Of a stretch of DNA of 42,117 nucleotides, positions 1 to 11,502 are shown piece by piece. Position numbers and translations under genes: made by a program. The stretch is taken from the NCBI GenBank assembly GCA_022865275.1, contig JALIDQ010000003.1, positions 1 to 42,117 of the forward strand, read 5' to 3'. Source of the DNA: Candidatus Nanohalarchaeota archaeon QJJ-9. GTDB taxonomy: Archaea; Nanohalarchaeota; Nanosalinia; Nanosalinales; Nanoanaerosalinaceae. The notes under the pieces were generated by a model. That model saw only the letters and a program-made list of their open reading frames with translations. It did not search any database and was not told where the DNA came from. Each line of letters opens with the position of its first letter. Within the stretch, counting starts at the first letter, position 1.

Positions 1-408
1 GGTCTGAAGGAGCATATAGTCGAGCTTGTCAATAAAATGGATGCGGACCGTGTGGTGATTGACTCCATCTCTGTGATGGGAATGTATACCCAGGGAGCTG
101 CTGAGGTAAGGAGAAGGCTCTACGAGCTGATTAAACACCTCAGGCGTGAAGAAGTTACTACTGTAATAACTTCTGAGGCTCCTAAAGGAAACGAAGATTC
201 TATTTCGCGTTTTGGAGTTGAGGAGTTTGTCTCTGATACTGTTGTAACTCTTCATTACATGGGAATCGGTGGAGGAATTTTTAGGAACATTGAGGTTCCT
301 AAGATAAGGAAGACTGATCAGGAGAAGGGGAGTTTTCCGATGGAGATAAGCGATGCAGGGATGAAGGTCTATATGAGTGAGGAGGAATATGCGGAGGCTC
401 AGGACTGA
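1..408 (+). CDS. KaiC/RadA-superfamily ATPase, C-terminal part (5' end outside window)
   Basis: Frame is open from base 1 (GLKEHIVELVNKM...). Walker B-like DADRVVIDSISVMGMY and ISRFGVEEFVSDTVVTL are shared in pattern with the KaiC-like protein at 10765..11502 (AERVVIDSLTALNLYV ... ISRYGVEEFIADGVIKL). Confidence 0.85.
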   Translation, partial: GLKEHIVELVNKMDADRVVIDSISVMGMYTQGAAEVRRRLYELIKHLRREEVTTVITSEAPKGNEDSISRFGVEEFVSDTVVTLHYMGIGGGIFRNIEVPKIRKTDQEKGSFPMEISDAGMKVYMSEEEYAEAQD

Positions 409-890
409 ATTTTGAACCTGCAGAGATCGTCGCCTTCAAGGATACAGCCTTTTTCTGTAACTTTGAATTCTTTTTCGTAGTTCTGGCTGAATATCCCGGA
501 GACTATACCTGCTATTATCTGGCAGCCAGCGTTTTCTTTTTCTTCTGATTTTCTGGAGGGCAGTGAGTTTTTGACTCTGACCTCTCCTTTTTTCTCTTTG
601 ATATCGAAGTCGTGGAGTTCGAAGTCTCCTAGTCCCATCATGGTGAGAAGGTCCATCATGAACTCTATCATCTTTGTTCCGGAGATACCTGTCTTTCTTA
701 TGTTGGAGGCGAGGCTTTTCCCGACTGATTCTCCTATCTTATACGCGCCTTCTTTGCCTGTATTCTCTGCGATTTTGGAGAACATAGAGGCGTCCATAAG
801 GAATACCTGGTCGTCTAGTAGTTCGGCGTTACCGTTCTCACCGAAGTCTAGCTTTCTAGCCATCATGAACTTTTTTGCAAGAGAGTGCAT
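399..890 (-). CDS. V4R (4-vinyl reductase-like) domain protein, putative small-ligand sensor
   Basis: 163 aa. EGAYKIGESVGKSLA and C-terminal CILEGDDLCRFKI resemble the V4R consensus. Confidence 0.75.
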   Translation of the reverse strand: MHSLAKKFMMARKLDFGENGNAELLDDQVFLMDASMFSKIAENTGKEGAYKIGESVGKSLASNIRKTGISGTKMIEFMMDLLTMMGLGDFELHDFDIKEKKGEVRVKNSLPSRKSEEKENAGCQIIAGIVSGIFSQNYEKEFKVTEKGCILEGDDLCRFKIQS

Positions 891-893
891 GCT

Positions 894-1352
894 TTAACCG
901 GTTATACTGCTCCTTACGTTGTTGAGTTTTGACCATTTCTCGTAGGAAAGGCTTCCTTCCTCTTCTTTGTTGACTTCTACATCGCTTGCTAGGAGTTCTA
1001 CTTCTTTTTCCTCCCCGCATTTCTCTTTTATAACTTTTCTAAGTTCTTCTGCAAATTCTTGAGCTCTTTCCTTCCTTGAGAAGTGCGCAACTATCGCAGA
1101 AGGAGCTTTCTGCATCAGTTCTAAGAAACCTCCGCCGTTGAAAAGGAATCTCTGGTAGAATTTTCCTTCTACATTGTCCTGGCCTATGTAGTGTATAGTA
1201 TCGAAACCTTCAAGAGCTTCTACAAAGTTAAATACTTCTTTACCGCTTTCTTCCTGTGCATCAGTCTTGTTCTCGATTTCTTCTTCTGTAAGTGAGAAAG
1301 GAAGAACTTCTGGTAAGTCTATCAGGTTGACGTAATAGTGTTTGAGCTTCAT
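894..1352 (-). CDS. hypothetical protein, 152 aa
   Basis: Intact ORF co-directional with and tightly packed against the V4R and LuxC-like genes. No family recognised. Confidence 0.7.
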   Translation of the reverse strand: MKLKHYYVNLIDLPEVLPFSLTEEEIENKTDAQEESGKEVFNFVEALEGFDTIHYIGQDNVEGKFYQRFLFNGGGFLELMQKAPSAIVAHFSRKERAQEFAEELRKVIKEKCGEEKEVELLASDVEVNKEEEGSLSYEKWSKLNNVRSSITG

Positions 1353-1402
1353 GTTCTAGCACCGCTAGTCAAAGGTTGGGTGGTAAGGATATAAACTTGT
1401 TA

Positions 1403-2860
1403 TCATAGCGCTCTTTTGATCATGAACCTGACTTTGTCTGTAAACCCTATCTTTCCATTCCTCTCGTCTGTAACCCATTTAACCATCTCGTTGAGAGGAT
1501 GCTTTCCGTCCCAGGTGATGGGTGCGGAAGGAGCAGCTCCTCCTGGACTTGCTATACGGTTGGCTTTGGTGTATGCGATTTTATCTCTCAGTTCCTCTGC
1601 CTTTCTGTCAGAGGTAGCGAGTATAAACTCCTGAAGGTTTTCACTCGAGCCAAGAACGTCTATAGCTTCGCTAAGATCTTCTACCTTGTGTCCTTCGACG
1701 AACCTGAAGCTGTGGAATTCATTTACATCGTCCTTATCCAGGTCGTCCTCCATTACAACGACTGTATCGTTTTCGAAGTCGGAGACGAGCTGGTCGTAGT
1801 CCCTTGCCATTCTTTTGGCTCTTGTCTTTTTCATCTTCTCGTTGTCAGGTATTTTACCCATCTCGTATTCTTCTTTGTATTCTTCTAAGACGTCTGCGAG
1901 ATCTTCCATGAATTTTTCTGTATTTTCACTTTCTTCTACTGCCATCATAAGCGGTGAGAAGCAGAGTAGCTGGTCTCCCCAGGAGAAATCTTCTGCTATT
2001 TTGTACAGGTCGTCTATATTATAATTTTCCTGGAACTCTTCGTCGACTAGATAGCTTCCGAACTCGAAGTGGAACGGTATGAATCGGGTTGTAGGGGCTA
2101 CTTCTTCTTTTATCGCCTCGATAGTTGAATCGCTTCCCCAAGCCATTACGTAGTCCTCTGAGAAAAGGTTTTTCTCGAGTTCCTCGCTTCCACCCGGCCA
2201 GTATCCTGTTTTAAAGGAGTCTGCTAGGGGACCGTCCATTTCCTGATATACCTCGTCCATAATACGCATGGTTACCTGGTCGTCCCCGGGCATTTTATGG
2301 AGTACGGAGTTTTTACTAAGCGCTCTCCATACTTCCGGGATTACTACTGCAGCCATATTATGGCCTGGATTGATGTTAACTCCTTTTCCGAGAGGTACGG
2401 CTTTCTCGTCGTAGCCTAGGGCGGGGTTCCAGTCGTCCATGTATTTTTCTAGGTTAGTGTCTCCCATCTGCATAAGTCCTTTGTAGTAGTTCTTGTCGGC
2501 CATTTTTTCGACTAGTTCTAGGTCGTCTAGAATCATGTCCTTGGACTCTCCTGTCTCTTCCATTATCTCTTCGAGATATTCTTCCTGCCTTGCTTTTTCT
2601 GTGAAGGAACTGAGCGCGTTTTCTAGCTCCTTGTATATCTGTTCCATAGAGGTATTCCGTAGTTCCTGGTTGGATGGAATCGCTTCTTTAGGATTTTCAG
2701 GAAATCCTACTTCTTCACCGTCTTCAAGAAGGTAGGCTGAGTCAGGGATGTTGTCAGGGATAAACACTTCACTACCGTAGGAATCAGCTCCGCATCCCCC
2801 TCTGTAGCCTGCTTTTATGTCTTCTGTATCTCCAACTCTGACCTCTTCGATTTCCATCAC
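1403..2860 (-). CDS. LuxC-like acyl-CoA/fatty-acyl reductase
   Basis: LuxC-family pattern: HKMPGDDQVTMRIMDEVYQ...PLADSFKTGYWPGG, VMAWGSDSTIEAIKE, and SWGDQLLCFSPLMMAVEE in the position of the catalytic-Cys motif (W/F-DQQ-C-SPQ) of LuxC reductases. Confidence 0.8.
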   Translation of the reverse strand: MMEIEEVRVGDTEDIKAGYRGGCGADSYGSEVFIPDNIPDSAYLLEDGEEVGFPENPKEAIPSNQELRNTSMEQIYKELENALSSFTEKARQEEYLEEIMEETGESKDMILDDLELVEKMADKNYYKGLMQMGDTNLEKYMDDWNPALGYDEKAVPLGKGVNINPGHNMAAVVIPEVWRALSKNSVLHKMPGDDQVTMRIMDEVYQEMDGPLADSFKTGYWPGGSEELEKNLFSEDYVMAWGSDSTIEAIKEEVAPTTRFIPFHFEFGSYLVDEEFQENYNIDDLYKIAEDFSWGDQLLCFSPLMMAVEESENTEKFMEDLADVLEEYKEEYEMGKIPDNEKMKKTRAKRMARDYDQLVSDFENDTVVVMEDDLDKDDVNEFHSFRFVEGHKVEDLSEAIDVLGSSENLQEFILATSDRKAEELRDKIAYTKANRIASPGGAAPSAPITWDGKHPLNEMVKWVTDERNGKIGFTDKVRFMIKRAL

Positions 2861-2862
2861 CT

Positions 2863-3918
2863 CTACATAGAAGACCTTCCTAGGTGTTCGATTCTCACGT
2901 CTTCACCGTACTCTCCCCCTGTCTTCTTCACTATATCATCAGTAAGAATAGCTCCAGGATGGTCTACGGTGAGAGTATCTAGAATAATAGCTAATCCTTC
3001 ACCTGTTCCTTTAGGCTCTATTTCCCCAGTTTTTGCTAGTTTATCTTCATCTGCTACATATATGAGGCCTTGTGAAGGAACTCTTTTCTTATCAGGGTTC
3101 TCGTCGCCATATTTGTTTCCAGCAGGTATCATAGACTCTGTACACCCATAGAAGTCTACATGAGCTTCTCTTGGGATATCAAACGTATCTGCAATTCTCT
3201 GTCTAAATTCCTCGTTACCTTTGCCTTCTAATCCTTTCCATCCTCCAGCTGTTACAGCTGCGCCTTTTTTACCGAGGTCGATTTCTAGGCCAGTTTGCTT
3301 GATGTAATCCATAAACTTGTCTAAGTGAGGAGGAAGTCCAAATATTCCTAAATTACCGTCTCTCTTTTGTAATTCTTCTGCCATTCCTCCAAAGTCAGGT
3401 TTAGGTTCTCCTGTAGACATATCTAGGAAATATTCTGATTTATATGGTTGTCCAAATCCCCAATGCATGTAGTTAAAAGTACCTTTGTTACTTACGTTAG
3501 GATCTTGAACCTTCTCTAGAAACTCTTCTGATGGCCCTAAAATCGCCATGTAATCTAAATCAGGAAGCATAGCTTCTCCTATTCCGTTGAAATAATTTCT
3601 ATGCCTTTCTAGGCCTTTTTTGCCTCTAGGTACACGACTTCTCTCTCCCGTTGACGTTCCACTGCTTACTAGCTCCTTATAATAGTCTCCGATAGTAATT
3701 TTCTCTGGATTCTCTTTAAATTCTCTCATATCTATGGTAGGGGCGGCATAAAAATCTTTTATCGATTTAGAAGGATGTTCGAAATCACTTCTCTCTAATC
3801 TTGCTTTGTAGTTCTTGTTATCGCTCCAGTTTGCAATAGCTTCATTTGCAGCTTCTATGAAGAGTTCTTCATCATAATCAAAAGGATTTTGTTTGAGTAG
3901 GTTTTCTACGGCACCCAT
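2863..3918 (-). CDS. LuxE-like acyl-protein synthetase (ANL adenylation-type)
   Basis: SSGTSTGERSRVPR (AMP-binding P-loop-like), AAVTAGGWKGLEGKGNEEFRQRI, DFYGCTES, AILTDDIVKKTGGEYGEDVRIEHLGR. Two-nucleotide gap to the LuxC-like gene. Confidence 0.85.
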   Translation of the reverse strand: MGAVENLLKQNPFDYDEELFIEAANEAIANWSDNKNYKARLERSDFEHPSKSIKDFYAAPTIDMREFKENPEKITIGDYYKELVSSGTSTGERSRVPRGKKGLERHRNYFNGIGEAMLPDLDYMAILGPSEEFLEKVQDPNVSNKGTFNYMHWGFGQPYKSEYFLDMSTGEPKPDFGGMAEELQKRDGNLGIFGLPPHLDKFMDYIKQTGLEIDLGKKGAAVTAGGWKGLEGKGNEEFRQRIADTFDIPREAHVDFYGCTESMIPAGNKYGDENPDKKRVPSQGLIYVADEDKLAKTGEIEPKGTGEGLAIILDTLTVDHPGAILTDDIVKKTGGEYGEDVRIEHLGRSSM

Positions 3919-3950
3919 TGTAACTCACCTGTGATAATAATTAGTTGTTA

Positions 3951-3960
3951 CTTTTAAATA
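3951..3960 (-). promoter_or_regulatory. candidate TATA element upstream of the LuxE-like gene
   Basis: Minus strand reads TATTTAAAAG about 33-42 nt upstream of the LuxE-like ATG, at the 3' end of the FIST gene. Confidence 0.4.
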
Positions 3961-3961
3961 A

Positions 3962-5338
3962 TTAATCCTCTTCTTTGAAGACTTTATCACTAACACCCAT
4001 ACTGGTAAGAGTGATAGTTTGTCCTCCTGAAACCCCTTCACTAGAAGTACCAATCTCTCCATATGTAGCAAAACCTAGCGGTATACAGTTTCCTCCTACA
4101 GTATACTCGTCGCTAAGGTCTCTAACTTCTTCTTCAAATAAGTTTAGCCTTTGGAAGCACTCAAAAGCGAATATTAGTCCTGAATGAGATATATCTGACT
4201 TTATTTTTTCTATTGTACTTTTTGAGGTTTCGTATACTTCGTCGCTTCCGTATGAGAGCAGCTGTAGAGCCGAATTTTCTGGAACTTCGTTTAAGAATTT
4301 CAGTTTCTTACCTTCCAGTATATCGGCGGGAGTTTTTATCCAGATGTTTCCAGATTCGTCGGAAAATCCCAAAGGATGCCTTACTGCTTGTTCTGCGAGT
4401 GGATGTTCTTCGAATATGTTTTTACCCCTCTTCTGCATTAGTTTCAAGACTCCCTTTTCTAGCTTTAGTTTGCGTAAAACTTTCAAGGACTTAGGTAAAA
4501 GATCGTTTAGGTCCTTGTCCAACATATTGGCGTATTCTTCAGCCGCTGGAGAATTATTAAGCTTTCCAACAACGTTTACGTCTACATCAGTGGCTAGAGC
4601 TATTTCTCCCTGGCTTTTATACCCATGTGCCATTTTAAATCCAGTATCAAGTGTGGTAACTAAAGAAACTGCTATGATGCCGTTCGAAAGTATTTGACCA
4701 TTATATATCTGGTAGTTCCGTAGTAATCTCTCATCATCGCCTGCAAGTCCGCCTACTACTGGATTTGCCTTTATAACGTCTTTTATTCCTTTCAGAAGCC
4801 TCACATGCTGACCAAACCCTCCAGCCTCTGTTCCAGGCCCTTGAGCAAGCACGATCATATTATATGAGTCAGCCGACATCATCTCTGAAGTATCTGCATT
4901 TTTCAGGAACTGGTACTGGGAGTAGGAGTGGACTGTCTTGTCTATATCAAGGTTATCCAAAGCGCCTTGTGCAGCTTTTTTCCCGCTTTCCTCAGGATTT
5001 TCTTCATCTATCTCTTCTACGTTTATACCCCAGTACATCATCTCGGAGCTGATAACCGTGGCTACAGCGGTCCCCTGGGTAAATCCTTCCTTGGAAATCT
5101 CGCCTGCAGAAGTAGCTCCAACCCATTCGATATCTCCAAACTCTTCGTTCACGCCTTCGACGAATTTTTCTATGGTTTCGTCGTTTTTTCCGTATTTTGA
5201 TCCCGAGCAGAAAACAAATCCTATATCTGGTTTTTCTTCTCCGTCGTAGTTTTCCATAGCTTCTTTTGCGGCTTGTTTTCCAGCTTTGTAAGGGTCTTCC
5301 GCGTCTGAAATTCCTTGCCCGGTATCTATGTTCTCCAT
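3962..5338 (-). CDS. FIST N/FIST C domain sensory protein
   Basis: IEWVGATSAGEISKEGF (FIST N) and NPVVGGLAGDD...YNGQILSNGIIAVSL plus YTVGGNCIPLGFATYGEIG (FIST N/C pattern). Confidence 0.85.
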   Translation of the reverse strand: MENIDTGQGISDAEDPYKAGKQAAKEAMENYDGEEKPDIGFVFCSGSKYGKNDETIEKFVEGVNEEFGDIEWVGATSAGEISKEGFTQGTAVATVISSEMMYWGINVEEIDEENPEESGKKAAQGALDNLDIDKTVHSYSQYQFLKNADTSEMMSADSYNMIVLAQGPGTEAGGFGQHVRLLKGIKDVIKANPVVGGLAGDDERLLRNYQIYNGQILSNGIIAVSLVTTLDTGFKMAHGYKSQGEIALATDVDVNVVGKLNNSPAAEEYANMLDKDLNDLLPKSLKVLRKLKLEKGVLKLMQKRGKNIFEEHPLAEQAVRHPLGFSDESGNIWIKTPADILEGKKLKFLNEVPENSALQLLSYGSDEVYETSKSTIEKIKSDISHSGLIFAFECFQRLNLFEEEVRDLSDEYTVGGNCIPLGFATYGEIGTSSEGVSGGQTITLTSMGVSDKVFKEED

Positions 5339-6538: not shown

Positions 6539-9500
6539 ATGGTCTTTGAATCTCTCAAAGAGAAGCTTGAGAATATAACCGGTTCTGAGGAAGAGGGAAC
6601 TGCGGAGACTCTCTTCAACCTAAAGAGCGGATCACAGAACGTAGTTGCTCTCCCCGAGGACGAAGATATAAGAGAAGTAGATACGCGTTATTCTCTTATA
6701 GAACCGTTTGCAGACGCCCACATCAAATGGGATGAAGATGAAGAAAGCCTTGTATACTATGTAGACGAGCCTTCGCTTAACGAAAGAGAACAGGAGATAT
6801 TTGACCGTATAAAGGATGCTTTAGAGGAAAAGATAGACATATCACTCGAAAAGCTGGATTCTACAGAAAAAATAATCAACTACCTCGACGAGAAAATAGA
6901 CGAGGTAACAGCAGAGCTAGGCATAAGGCTAAGCGAGGAGGAGAAGAACAAGATAATGTACTTTGTCTACAGGAACTTCGCAGGCCTGAACGAAATCGAA
7001 CCACTGATGCACGACCCTTATATAGAGGATATAGGCTGTTCGGGTATAGGTATTCCTGTATATATAGTACATTCCAAGTTCGGATCGATAAAGACAGATC
7101 TAAAATACAACTCGGAAGAAGAGCTCAAAAACCTAGTCGTAAAGCTTGCAGAAAGGTGTGGAAAATATATTTCATACGCAGAACCGCTTCTAGACGGGGC
7201 TTTACCCGATGGTTCCCGAGTAAACGCTTCACTGACACAGGACGTAACCACGAAAGGACCGACTTTCTCGATACGAAAGTTCCAGGAGACACCTTACTCT
7301 GCCGCGGACATTATAGAGCTAGGAACCGCTAACTACGACATAATGGCCTACCTATGGCTAGCCTTAGAGTACAGAAAGTCCATACTGATTTCAGGAGGCA
7401 CAGCTACAGGAAAGTGTGTAGCACCTGACGATAAGATACATCTTGGGAACGGAAATATCGTAGAAGCAGAAGCTCTCCATGAAGAAGTGAAGGAAGAAAG
7501 AACTCCTAAGGAACTAGTAACGATGAAGAAAGACCTTGAACTCGAGAACAAACAGGTCAACAAGTTCTACAGACTAGAGAACAACAACCCTGTCTATCGT
7601 ATCGAAACTCAGAGAGGAGCAGAGGTAACCGTTACACCTGAGCATCCTTTTATCACAAACCAGAAAGGCGATATAGAGAAAATAGATGCAGAGAACCTGG
7701 AAGAAGGTGCTTTTATCGCGTCTCCAAGAAAGCTGGATCCTAATACAGAAGTTCAGACCTTAAAACCGCTTGCCCATGATATAGAAGCCTACGCATCAGG
7801 AGCCCAGCACCTTGTCAGAGATCTTTTAGAAGAGAGGGAGGAAAACGTTACAGAACTGGCAGAAGAGCTAGACGAGCATCCCAAGACAGTCTCCTGCTGG
7901 AAAGAAAACAATTCTATCCCCTGGCAGACCCTTGAAAAGCTTGTAGAGGAGGGAAGCATTTCTCAAGAGGAGGCTATGGAGGAGATAGAAGGGATGGCGG
8001 GGATGCACTCTTCAATAGCGGTCGATGTACCTGAGAAAGTTACACCGGAGCTGGCAAAGGTTGTAGGATACATTCTTGCGGACGGGAACCTTGATAGTAA
8101 CTATGTACACTTCCACAACACCGACTCGGACCTGAGAGAAGACTTCCAGGAAAGCCTCAGGAAATCGTTCGGAGTGGAAGGAAGGCTACGTGACTATGAT
8201 AGGATTCCGAGGATCACAGTAAGCTCCAAGCCTGTGAACCAGATGCTACAGCATTTCTTCGACATTCCCGCAGACAAGCCCAAGGCAAGACATGCGGAGA
8301 CTCCTGACCAGATCCTAAAGTCTCCTCCAGAAATCACATCCAGCTACCTTCAGGCATTGTTCGACTGCGAGGCAGATGTGTCGAATAAACAGACAGAGAT
8401 AACCTTTAACACCTCTTCAGAAGCACTCGCACACGAAGTGACAAACCTCCTGCATAGACACGGGATAGTAGCTAGAAAGCGGGTGAAGGAAGTAGGAGGA
8501 GAGAAATACTACAGAATAGTTATCTCAGGAAAGTCGCAGAACCAGAGATTCCTTGAAGAGATAGGATTCGTATCTAAAGATAAGGAGAGAAAAGCTAGAG
8601 AGAACATCAGGGAAGCAGATAAGGACCATACCAATACCGATCTGGTGCCTGCGAGCTCACTTCTAAAGGATATAAAACAGAAGGAAGGCCTTACAAACAA
8701 AGAGATAGCTGACAAAGCAGGAGTTTCAAGGAGGATGATTGGAAGGGTTCTTAACGAAGAAAGGAGGCCTTCAAAATCCACTATAGAGAAACTCGCGGAT
8801 AACTTGGAGGTCGAGACTGCAGACAGAAGCTTGGAGAAGCTGAAGGAGTTGGCAAAGGATGAGGTCTTCTGGGATCGTGTGGATAGTATAGAAAAAATAC
8901 CTGCTGAAGAATCTCCGGACTACGTATACGACGTCACAGTTGATAGTTCCCATAACTTCGCGGCAGGGAGTTTACCTCTCTTTATACACAATACAACCTT
9001 CCTTAACTCAGTAGTCACATTCATACCTCCAGAACAGAAGATTGTGTCTATAGAAGATACAAGAGAGCTTCAATTACCTCACGAGAACTGGATACCTTCG
9101 GTTGCGCGTTCAGGGTTTGGTATCCAGGGCCAGGAGGAGGGAGAGGTTACGATGTACAAGCTACTGAAAGAATCCTTCCGACAGAACCCAGACTATGTTG
9201 TAGTAGGAGAGGTCCGTGGAAAAGAGGCCTCAGTCCTCTTCCAGGGAATGTCGTCAGGACATCCTTCTCTAGGTACTATGCACGCTTCTTCACCAGGTGA
9301 CGTGGTTAAGCGACTAACTACCCCTCCTATCAACCTTTCCCCAAGCCTTGTAGATACTCTAGACATTATTGTGATCATGTCACACGCAAGGGAGCAGGGA
9401 GAGAACGCTCGTAGAGTCGAAGCGATCTACGAGGTAGAGACCATAACTCCGGAAGGCTCACCAAGAACCAACGAATACTTCTCATGGACTCCTGTGGACG

Positions 9501-9958
9501 ATACATTTGCTGTCAAATCAGATTCAACACTACTCGAAGAGATAAGGCAGCAGTACGGCCTTAGCCAGAAGGAGATGGAGGAAGAGGTAGAGAACCGTAA
9601 GAGGGTTCTTAAGTGGATGAAGGAGCAGGGGCATTCCAGCTTTTCAGAGGTAGCAAGGATAGTCTCGGAATACTACAAGAACCCTGAATCAGTCATTAAA
9701 GCGGTCGAGGAAGATACAAAGTCAAGTTTAGGGGACCTGATCGAAGAATCAGAAAGCGAGCTCAAACCTGTAGAAAAGAAGCTTCCAGCCGACATCCAGA
9801 AAGCGGAAGAAGAGCTCAGGAAGGGATCAAAAGAGTCTGAGGCCGCTAAAAAGGTAGAAAAGCAGAGGGAAACCAGTTCTTCTGAAGAGAAAGATTTAAG
9901 CGATGAAGACATGTTTGAGGCTGAAGAAATTGAAGAAAATCCTTTCAAGGAAGACTAG
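6539..9958 (+). CDS. type II/IV secretion (VirB11/ArlI/TadA-like) pilus ATPase containing an in-frame intein
   Basis: [24 protein letters not shown], Walker A [9 protein letters not shown]/TT split by the intein, [61 protein letters not shown]. Confidence 0.93.
   Translation: [1139 protein letters not shown]
7415..8992 (+). mobile_element. intein with LAGLIDADG (DOD) endonuclease domain, 526 aa, inserted in the Walker A motif
   Basis: N-terminal Cys ([13 protein letters not shown]), block B [14 protein letters not shown], DOD motifs [11 protein letters not shown] and [13 protein letters not shown], block F [16 protein letters not shown], C-terminal LPLFIHN followed by extein Thr. Removing it restores GGTATGKTTFLN. 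Confidence 0.94.
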
Positions 9959-10668
9959 TCCATAAGCTCTATACCATTATCCTTTATCTCGAAACGGTGC
10001 CATTCTCGTTCAGGTGAGGTCTTGGACATCCTGGAAATTTTTATATACCTCTTGTCGTCCTCAATCTTCAGATTGATCACACCGTCCGCCACGTAGTTAA
10101 GCTTTGAGACAGCTTCCTTGTCCTGAACTCCTTCTTCAAGGGTTAGGAGCAGGACTCCGTCCGATGCTTTAGATTTGGCGCTTACAACTTGGAGAAACTT
10201 TACAGCAGAGTTAACATCGGTGTATAGTACCATAGTAGAGATAGAATCCGCAACTATTCGCTTTTCACCCTCACCTATTCCTCTCAACGCGTCAGTCAGG
10301 GTCATGTTGAAAGCATTTAGGTCGGATGGGCCCTGTATAGCGTATTCAGAGTCTACTTCCTTACCCAGCTTCCAAGAATAAGCGTCCAGGAATGCGAAAT
10401 TATCTTTGTGTTCTTCGAAATCCCATCCGAAATTGTTTGCACTTTCCATAACCTCCTCTGGAGCGTTGTCAAAAGTTATGTAGAGACCTCGTTCACTGTT
10501 AGAAAGGCCTTCCTCCATGAACTGATTGATAAACGTGGATTTTCCGGTTCCTGGCTCTCCTATAAGGAAGACTGTAGAACCTTTGGGTAGTCCCCCGTCA
10601 AGAAGGCTGTCTAACTTTTCGATACCGGTCTCTTCCCGTTTAACCATAACACTTAACAGGAACTCCAT
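9955..10668 (-). CDS. KaiC-like (RadA superfamily) ATPase
   Basis: ETGIEKLDSLLDGGLPKGSTVFLIGEPGTGKSTFINQF; Walker B GEKRIVADSISTMVLY. Confidence 0.88.
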   Translation of the reverse strand: MEFLLSVMVKREETGIEKLDSLLDGGLPKGSTVFLIGEPGTGKSTFINQFMEEGLSNSERGLYITFDNAPEEVMESANNFGWDFEEHKDNFAFLDAYSWKLGKEVDSEYAIQGPSDLNAFNMTLTDALRGIGEGEKRIVADSISTMVLYTDVNSAVKFLQVVSAKSKASDGVLLLTLEEGVQDKEAVSKLNYVADGVINLKIEDDKRYIKISRMSKTSPEREWHRFEIKDNGIELMD

Positions 10669-10764: not shown

Positions 10765-11502
10765 ATGACTATGGGAGATATAGAAAAAACAAAGACAGGT
10801 ATAGAAGGCCTCGATGAACTGCTCCAAGGAGGCATACCGGAAAATCATTCTATATACGTAGCGGGACCGGCTGGTTCAGGTAAGACAACCTTTGGTATAG
10901 AGTTTCTGTACCATGGGGCAAAGGAAATGAACCAGAACGGATTATACATCTCTTTCGAGGAAGGAAAAGAACAGATAATAGATAATCTTCCTTTTAACTG
11001 GGATCTCGAAAGTCTTATAGGCGAGGGCAAGATACAGATAGTCAAGTATGACCCATACCAGTACGAAAACATAATCGACCTTATAAGGAGCTCTGTGAAG
11101 GAAAACAACGCGGAAAGAGTGGTTATAGATTCCTTAACCGCCCTAAACCTTTACGTGGACGATACAAAGGATGTAAGAAAAATGATACTGGATATGAACG
11201 AGCAGCTCAGGAAACTCAGCTGTACAACGCTTTACACAGGCGAGATAAAGACAGGTCACCCGGAGGAGATCTCCCGCTACGGAGTTGAGGAGTTCATAGC
11301 TGACGGTGTTATAAAGCTTGCATTAAGCAAGCAGGGTTCGGAACTATCCAACCAACTTCTTGTTCGAAAGATGCGTGGAACAGATCATGATAAGAAAATT
11401 CATCCGTTCAAGTTCGAGAACGATGGCTTGAAAGTTTATGCAAAGGAAAAAGCGTTTGAATCCTCGGGCGACTCGCTCGGATCGGGCGACGAACCGTTCT
11501 AA
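10765..11502 (+). CDS. KaiC-like ATPase, candidate ArlH/FlaH-type regulator of the pilus ATPase
   Basis: KTGIEGLDELLQGGIPENHSIYVAGPAGSGKTTFGIEFLYHG; Walker B AERVVIDSLTALNLYV. Lies between the VirB11-like ATPase and the platform proteins. Confidence 0.88.
   Translation: MTMGDIEKTKTGIEGLDELLQGGIPENHSIYVAGPAGSGKTTFGIEFLYHGAKEMNQNGLYISFEEGKEQIIDNLPFNWDLESLIGEGKIQIVKYDPYQYENIIDLIRSSVKENNAERVVIDSLTALNLYVDDTKDVRKMILDMNEQLRKLSCTTLYTGEIKTGHPEEISRYGVEEFIADGVIKLALSKQGSELSNQLLVRKMRGTDHDKKIHPFKFENDGLKVYAKEKAFESSGDSLGSGDEPF

Follow-up and report, generated by a model that had tools for sequence, protein, structure and literature searches.

What a pair of bioluminescence-type enzymes does among the sensory genes of an archaeon is the question raised by positions 1-5338 of contig JALIDQ010000003.1 of Candidatus Nanohalarchaeota archaeon QJJ-9 (assembly GCA_022865275.1). 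The window, by which we mean the whole stretch of 42,117 nucleotides that was analysed, is the entire contig (C28 in our numbering) of a genome of 625 kb that is 88% complete. Read 5' to 3' on the minus strand, the cluster encodes a FIST protein, a LuxE-like adenylating enzyme, a LuxC-like reductase, an orphan protein of 152 aa and a V4R protein, and it converges with a KaiC-like ATPase. An initial annotation, made from the letters alone, had proposed that a LuxC-LuxE pair in this cluster makes or senses an acyl or aldehyde ligand and reports to a KaiC-type switch. Makarova, Galperin and Koonin are said to have described KaiC-like ATPases as archaeal signalling hubs in mBio in 2017, article e01959-17. 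We find that the FIST, LuxE, LuxC, orphan, V4R and KaiC set is more than a chance cluster, since the arrangement recurs in unrelated archaeal families. The reading of the set, KaiC and orphan included, as one functional unit is strongly supported by these gene neighbourhoods. We propose that it would form a conserved archaeal sensory module built on a carboxylic-acid reductase and read out by KaiC, a proposal that we consider evenly balanced between right and wrong.

The six-gene set recurs in unrelated archaea

Loci were annotated with purpose-built hidden Markov models (HMMs) for the components. Among 28 genomes of the window's phylum, LuxE occurs in only one other, G008, which belongs to another family. 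There the order is FIST, LuxE, LuxC, an ATPase-like gene of 469 aa on the opposite strand, the homologue of the orphan, V4R and finally KaiC in convergent orientation. A 27-residue remnant of the orphan start lies immediately after LuxC, on which ground the ATPase-like gene appears to have been inserted between LuxC and the orphan, the older order being that of the window. Beyond this phylum as well as within it, 11 genomes have the complete set of six within about 12 kb (G000, G008, G039, G066, G334, G369, G421, G461, G507, G524 and G616). The gaps in complete loci are usually shorter than 100 nt or are replaced by overlaps, many neighbours overlapping by a few nucleotides, and the clusters of G421 and G524 are compact, with all genes on one strand. 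Partial sets, or sets truncated by contig ends, are found in G061, G240, G466 and G492, and the contig of the G398 locus stops too early for a complete reading.

Throughout the orphan-bearing loci with FIST, G466 apart, the order from FIST to adenylating enzyme to reductase is kept, with FIST directly before the adenylase. The exceptions are an opposite-strand gene (G369) or a membrane protein (G616) between the two enzymes, and G492, which has no recognised adenylase. FIST was detected in 44 of 249 genomes, namely in all 7 orphan-positive genomes versus 37 of the 242 others (Fisher, 3.5e-6), and in these 7 it adjoins the orphan except in G240, where it lies on another contig. The survey of neighbourhoods in related genomes, which the initial annotation had suggested, thus found the genes repeatedly together in unrelated archaea. 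Many of the weak archaeal LuxE matches were PaaK-like enzymes without an adjoining LuxC, and these were set aside.

The recurrence bears on the simplest explanation, that the genes are chance neighbours or passengers of a mobile element without a joint function. The window's LuxE and LuxC are most closely related to a pair on a haloarchaeal plasmid, with an integrase nearby, so the pair itself has been transferred, as such an explanation would have it. Yet the gene set and its order recur in many unrelated families, the genes overlap, and G008 retains an orphan start beside LuxC and the inserted gene. The explanation would moreover require contaminating copies, yet the sequences are strongly diverged; we regard it as largely refuted and highly improbable.

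The enzyme families are exchanged while both slots are kept

In five loci (G039, G066, G369, G616 and G334) an Aldedh-family protein occupies the LuxC slot and an AMP-binding-like or LuxE-like protein the LuxE slot. The G461 reductase is intermediate (Aldedh 2.3e-41, LuxC 3.7e-12), and in G421 and G507 divergent, mutually homologous proteins occupy both slots. The reductase cysteine is kept in every module reductase that was aligned; the sole gapped row of that alignment is the KASIII-like gene of G492, which is not a reductase. On the adenylase side the cysteine of the C-terminal tail, which we take from bacterial LuxE to be the acyl acceptor, is kept in every module adenylase, the divergent ones included, the exceptions being the window and two Halostella LuxE proteins. 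The tail KGCSL of the LuxE in PDB 7xc6 aligns with RGCSL of G008. The gene set, the FIST-adenylase-reductase order, the catalytic residues and the exchanges that keep both slots can be read directly in these loci.

The acid-reductase chemistry thus appears to be kept while the enzyme families are exchanged, and LuxC and LuxE themselves are dispensable to the system, both slots being occupied in many archaea by other adenylating and aldehyde-dehydrogenase-family enzymes. The Lux-gene cluster of the initial annotation stands as a recurring unit, with its emphasis moved from the Lux families, which are replaceable, to acid-reductase chemistry. The same cysteines could be read as protein acylation or thioester signalling, in which the acyl-cysteine state of LuxE and LuxC is itself the signal for FIST, the orphan or KaiC and little net reduction takes place. 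That nearly all members, divergent as their families are, retain the acyl-cysteine arm would fit this idea; the reductase nucleophile is kept too, suggesting that reduction matters, and we consider the idea improbable.

The enzyme pair of the window and its halophile variant

The coordinates, strands, gene order and tight spacing of the initial annotation (Table 1) held throughout: 2 nt separate LuxE from LuxC and 3 nt the orphan from V4R, and the stops of V4R and KaiC overlap (10 nt). The remaining gaps are 43 nt (FIST-LuxE) and 50 nt (LuxC-orphan). FIST, FIST_C, LuxC, LuxE, V4R and KaiC all score above the curated Pfam cut-offs. The Pfam scan of the cluster showed no luxAB luciferase genes, and for the cluster the label 'without luciferase' is correct; no genome-wide search was made. 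The proteins of the cluster are acidic in character and the related genomes are small, which probably marks a halophilic, nanohaloarchaeon-like archaeon with a small genome.

The window LuxE matches Pfam LuxE (PF04443) over residues 187-330 only (1.8e-9, 37.4 bits against a cut-off of 24.9). Homology is supported despite this modest score by the match to the LuxE of PDB 7xc6 (1.4e-7) and by a full-length match, at 38% identity, to a LuxE of the Halostella pelagica plasmid (CP040680). The adenylation motifs SSGT, YGCTE and TDD are present. The protein ends in GRSSM, and the C-terminal cysteine arm of the family is missing. The LuxE identity of the initial annotation is thus upheld by profile, structure-linked sequence and motifs and qualified by this tail; we file the protein as a predicted LuxE-like enzyme and not as a full acyl-protein synthetase, the C-terminal acyl-acceptor cysteine being absent. 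The window LuxC matches Pfam LuxC (PF05893; 2.9e-32, 112.5 bits against a cut-off of 21) and the LuxC of 7xc6 (2.1e-10), with the nucleophile aligned: Cys300 falls on the family cysteine and on DQQACFST of 7xc6. Its only other cysteine, Cys23, lies in an N-terminal extension (YRGGC). Both enzymes miss the NCBIfam equivalog cut-offs for bioluminescence (LuxC 55.7 versus 750; LuxE 27.8 versus 550), and no LuxC was found in phages or IMG/VR.

The window LuxC is 50.6% identical to that of the same Halostella plasmid. LuxE is present there in two copies, and genes for a P450, an antiporter and an integrase lie nearby; FIST, V4R, the orphan and KaiC are all absent from the 25 kb examined. The LuxC tree groups the window with Halostella (support 100/100) and the orphan tree groups the window with G008 (94/94). 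Since the two trees disagree, the enzyme pair differs in history from the other genes of the cluster, and the simplest reading is that the LuxE/LuxC pair was replaced inside a standing cluster. The extension with YRGGC is present in both halophile LuxC proteins, and its likeness to the LuxE tail was equalled by 1 of 2000 shuffles for the window and by 71 of 2000 for Halostella. It appears that, in the window's lineage, the acyl-carrying cysteine has been relocated from the C-terminus of LuxE to the N-terminus of LuxC (Cys23).

Table 1. Positions of the genes of the cluster, of further window genes and of accessory genes in other loci.
Feature	Source	Position	Strand	Basis or remark
FIST (FIST_N + FIST_C), 458 aa	window	3962..5338	-	Pfam; opens acid-reductase block
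LuxE-like acyl-adenylating enzyme (predicted), 351 aa	window	2863..3918	-	Pfam LuxE, PDB 7xc6, motifs
LuxC-like acyl-thioester reductase (predicted), 485 aa, GTG start	window	1403..2860	-	Pfam LuxC, PDB 7xc6
Orphan family protein, 152 aa	window	894..1352	-	profile of archaeal homologues, alignment
V4R-domain small-ligand sensor (predicted), 163 aa	window	399..890	-	Pfam V4R, family profile
KaiC-like ATPase, C-terminal 135 aa only	window	1..408	+	Pfam KaiC; truncated by contig end
PilB3-like ATPase with intein	window	6539-9958	+	
KaiC gene	window	9955-10668	-	
KaiC gene	window	10765-11502	+	
DUF2304-like (sub-threshold), ~115 aa	L093	2670-3038		upstream of KaiC
DUF2304-like (sub-threshold), ~115 aa	L094	4083-4442		upstream of KaiC
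DUF2304-like (sub-threshold), ~115 aa	L098	4162-4497		upstream of KaiC
Two adjacent orphan-family copies	G536, L100, contig C1	9877-12557		
Polytopic membrane protein	G616, L101, contig C23	12778-13740		
Orphan locus with decarboxylase homologue	G466, L099, contig C8	9814-14717		
KASIII/thiolase-like receiver fusion	G492, L095, contig C1	13279-14724		
FIST-LuxE-LuxC locus	G174, L021, contig C231	7795-13787		
LuxE-LuxC and epimerase-like gene	G037, L024, contig C1	8152-11908		

Sensor and switch genes

The window FIST protein matches both halves of its family (FIST 5.7e-28, 98.5 bits against 23.2; FIST_C 4.4e-17, 62.9 bits against 28.5) and is 33-37% identical to the FIST proteins of G008 and G081. 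Homologues are present in 15 orphan-bearing loci among those examined. On bacterial plasmids, FIST genes have cyclase, MCP and GGDEF genes as neighbours, with which a sensory role of FIST would be in line. The V4R protein, with cysteines at 123, 149 and 157, passes the Pfam V4R cut-off (4.6e-8, 33.5 bits against 31) and also resembles MetOD1 (2.7e-5); against PDB, the profile of the family alignment finds MJ1460 (1.9e-9) and the phenol sensor MopR (1e-4).

The KaiC-like ATPase of the initial annotation is borne out by Pfam KaiC (5.5e-29, 101.6 bits against 26.6) for what is there of an incomplete gene, position 1 being the contig end. Its Walker A (P-loop) region falls beyond that end; the full-length G008 orthologue (231 aa, convergent with V4R) has GGAGTGKT at this place. 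Convergent, overlapping KaiC and V4R genes are found in G000, G008, G039, G066 and G616. In the orphan locus of G466, V4R and a histidine-kinase ATPase domain form one fusion protein, and in G492 a CBS protein adjoins KaiC; both point to signalling.

Directly upstream of KaiC, three module loci carry a protein of about 115 aa with sub-threshold similarity to DUF2304. Archaeal FIST genes other than those of the module mostly sit away from it. They too are often beside KaiC (L132 of G035, L133 of G209, L135, L137 and L140), and in G035, G191 and G212 an Aldedh-like gene lies near them; the KaiC-FIST pairing may thus be wider than the six-gene module.

The orphan family

The orphan has no match in Pfam, NCBIfam or PDB, its similarities to Pfam and NCBIfam families being weak and sub-threshold. 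As far as tested, with bacteria covered through plasmids only, it is restricted to archaea. A first profile found it in 9 of 397 archaeal genomes, and a larger one in 2 of 29, 2 of 34, 9 of 159 and 3 of 93 genomes in the phyla of G039, G081, G334 and G369, respectively; counted from genome handles, 19 distinct genomes of about 630 sampled are positive. Searches of plasmids, phages and IMG/VR gave no match. Its presence in the loci of several archaeal phyla indicates a conserved family that would define the system. A motif resemblance to class III cyclases or GGDEF-like domains received no support from profile comparison, by which the orphan is also unrelated to KaiC and V4R. A single-sequence AlphaFold model (mean pLDDT 46) was too poor for use. 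In G536 there are two adjacent copies of the family, one of which forms the C-terminal domain of a cysteine-rich, membrane-anchored protein of 760 aa (topology by eye); this copy hints that the orphan is able to work at the membrane.

Proposed mechanism and the metabolic alternative

We propose that the LuxE-type adenylating enzyme would convert a carboxylic acid to acyl-AMP and load it onto a cysteine arm, and that the LuxC- or aldehyde-dehydrogenase-type reductase would accept the acyl group at a cysteine of its own before reducing it to an aldehyde. The retained residues and slots argue for acid activation, acyl transfer through cysteine and aldehyde formation. FIST, whose gene lies just before that of the adenylase, may bind the acid or the product and present or sense it; V4R would be a second small-ligand sensor, and both would signal to the KaiC-type ATPase. 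The orphan would be the constant partner, probably linking the complex of enzymes and sensors with either KaiC or the membrane. The substrate, the product, the direction of flow and the signalling to KaiC are what we infer beyond the loci themselves. An acyl or aldehyde ligand that is made or sensed and reported to KaiC, as initially proposed, fits the catalytic residues and the sensor and switch partners. Since archaea have isoprenoid membrane lipids, fatty acids are only one substrate option beside isoprenoid, aromatic and short acids. The product may be a signal, the acid may be a signal that is cleared, or a metabolic pathway may merely be regulated.

A further hypothesis, which we regard as unlikely as it stands, is that the acid reductase is dedicated to an undescribed form of archaeal signalling: it would produce or break down a diffusible signal, an acid or an aldehyde, to be read by FIST and V4R and relayed by KaiC. 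The module would then serve chemical communication or report on lipid status, with the orphan as a partner family of its own, in several phyla, small-genome archaea included, a suggestion that is similarly doubtful.

Several loci weigh against the sensory module with which we began. The set is not strictly obligate: G081 has five components and no KaiC was found near its orphan, and in G501 and G536 V4R is present and FIST is not near the orphan. The enzyme pair can also serve elsewhere: the orphan is missing from the FIST-LuxE-LuxC locus of G174, and neither G037 nor the Halostella plasmid has FIST with its LuxE-LuxC genes. The window LuxE, finally, lacks the acyl-carrying cysteine, and the arm proposed around Cys23 is drawn from two sequences with a weak motif score.

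Some of these loci are also what a metabolic operon would predict. The cluster would then first of all make an aldehyde or alcohol for a cell component, for example an isoprenoid or polyketide-like product, with FIST carrying the substrate or acting as a subunit of the enzyme, and V4R, KaiC and the orphan merely regulating by product level, which is a possible reading, if somewhat unlikely. FIST-LuxE-LuxC alone (G174) would suit it, as would LuxE-LuxC with an epimerase-like gene (G037) or next to a P450 (the Halostella plasmid), the polytopic membrane protein in the G616 operon, a polyprenyl synthase near the G240 orphan, the thiolase/KASIII-receiver fusion of G492, the phosphatidylserine-decarboxylase homologue of G466, and the transport and ketoreductase genes that accompany a bacterial LuxE-LuxC pair. 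No biosynthetic partner is common to the loci, however; what stays constant is the company of sensors, orphan and KaiC.

Some accessory genes can be described further. The G616 membrane protein (320 aa, no Pfam match), encoded between adenylase and reductase, contains a NLIGDIRDTQFDK stretch that by eye is reminiscent of UbiA prenyltransferases. The G466 locus comprises the orphan, a GH3/LuxE-like adenylase, the decarboxylase homologue and the V4R-HATPase_c histidine kinase. The G492 fusion, which joins a KASIII/thiolase-like protein to a response-regulator receiver, follows FIST and the reductase. In G174, a 3.4-Mb genome that is Asgard-like in appearance, with 27% GC at the locus, gelsolin-repeat and Roadblock/LC7-like proteins precede FIST-LuxE-LuxC. 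The epimerase-like gene of G037 comes after the LuxE-LuxC pair, in a locus where FIST and the orphan are absent.

Relation to known systems

The sensory module combines known kinds, a KaiC-type signalling neighbourhood and a LuxCE-type reductase. We do not call it categorically new, as the main KaiC-hub paper lies outside our literature comparison and bacteria were covered via plasmids only. With the bacterial LuxC-LuxE fatty acid reductase complex (PDB 7xc6) it shares homologous reductase and synthetase, an aligned nucleophilic cysteine and gene adjacency, whereas the archaeal cluster has FIST and neither LuxD nor luciferase, lies far below the NCBIfam equivalog cut-offs, and in the window has a LuxE without the C-terminal cysteine. 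The Halostella plasmid holds the closest enzyme relatives, with the missing LuxE tail and the YRGGC of the LuxC N-terminus in common, but its arrangement is LuxE-LuxE-LuxC and the four other components of the window cluster are not with it. Like bacterial FIST sensors (NosP and others), the archaeal protein has FIST_N and FIST_C and adjoins signalling genes; unlike them, it is encoded directly upstream of an adenylase and a reductase, and its NosP score is 82 against a cut-off of 450. The window V4R shares its domain, by profile, with the phenol sensors MopR and DmpR and with MsvR, but it stands alone, without a DNA-binding or AAA+ domain, and scores 50 against 220 for MsvR.

To our knowledge, the inputs to archaeal KaiC hubs are mostly unknown. 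The module would offer a concrete and recurrent one, with an acid-reductase pair, two ligand-binding proteins and an uncharacterised protein, and would bring the question of what these hubs sense within reach of experiments on a few purified proteins. It is also a case of swapped enzyme families with chemistry and partners apparently kept, and possibly of a catalytic swinging arm that has moved between neighbouring genes. A KaiC gene beside V4R-type small-ligand sensors likens the module to the archaeal KaiC-like signalling hubs, as far as the available parts of the sources go (cited in PMC5847659 and PMC6393860). FIST and LuxE are absent from the text of PMC6393860, and a literature search that excludes the main archaeal KaiC-hub paper yielded no paper joining FIST with KaiC or LuxE.

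Further genes of the window

Scans of a genome-contig collection with single proteins returned no relatives, and anti-phage defence was set aside, the five minus-strand proteins having no PADLOC match. Beyond the cluster, the window encodes a PilB3-like type II/IV secretion ATPase with an intein (splicing domain, LAGLIDADG_3 and HTH) that interrupts the P-loop (SGGTATGK|C...HN|TT). Downstream of it lie two KaiC genes, one on each strand, and then a T2SSF gene.

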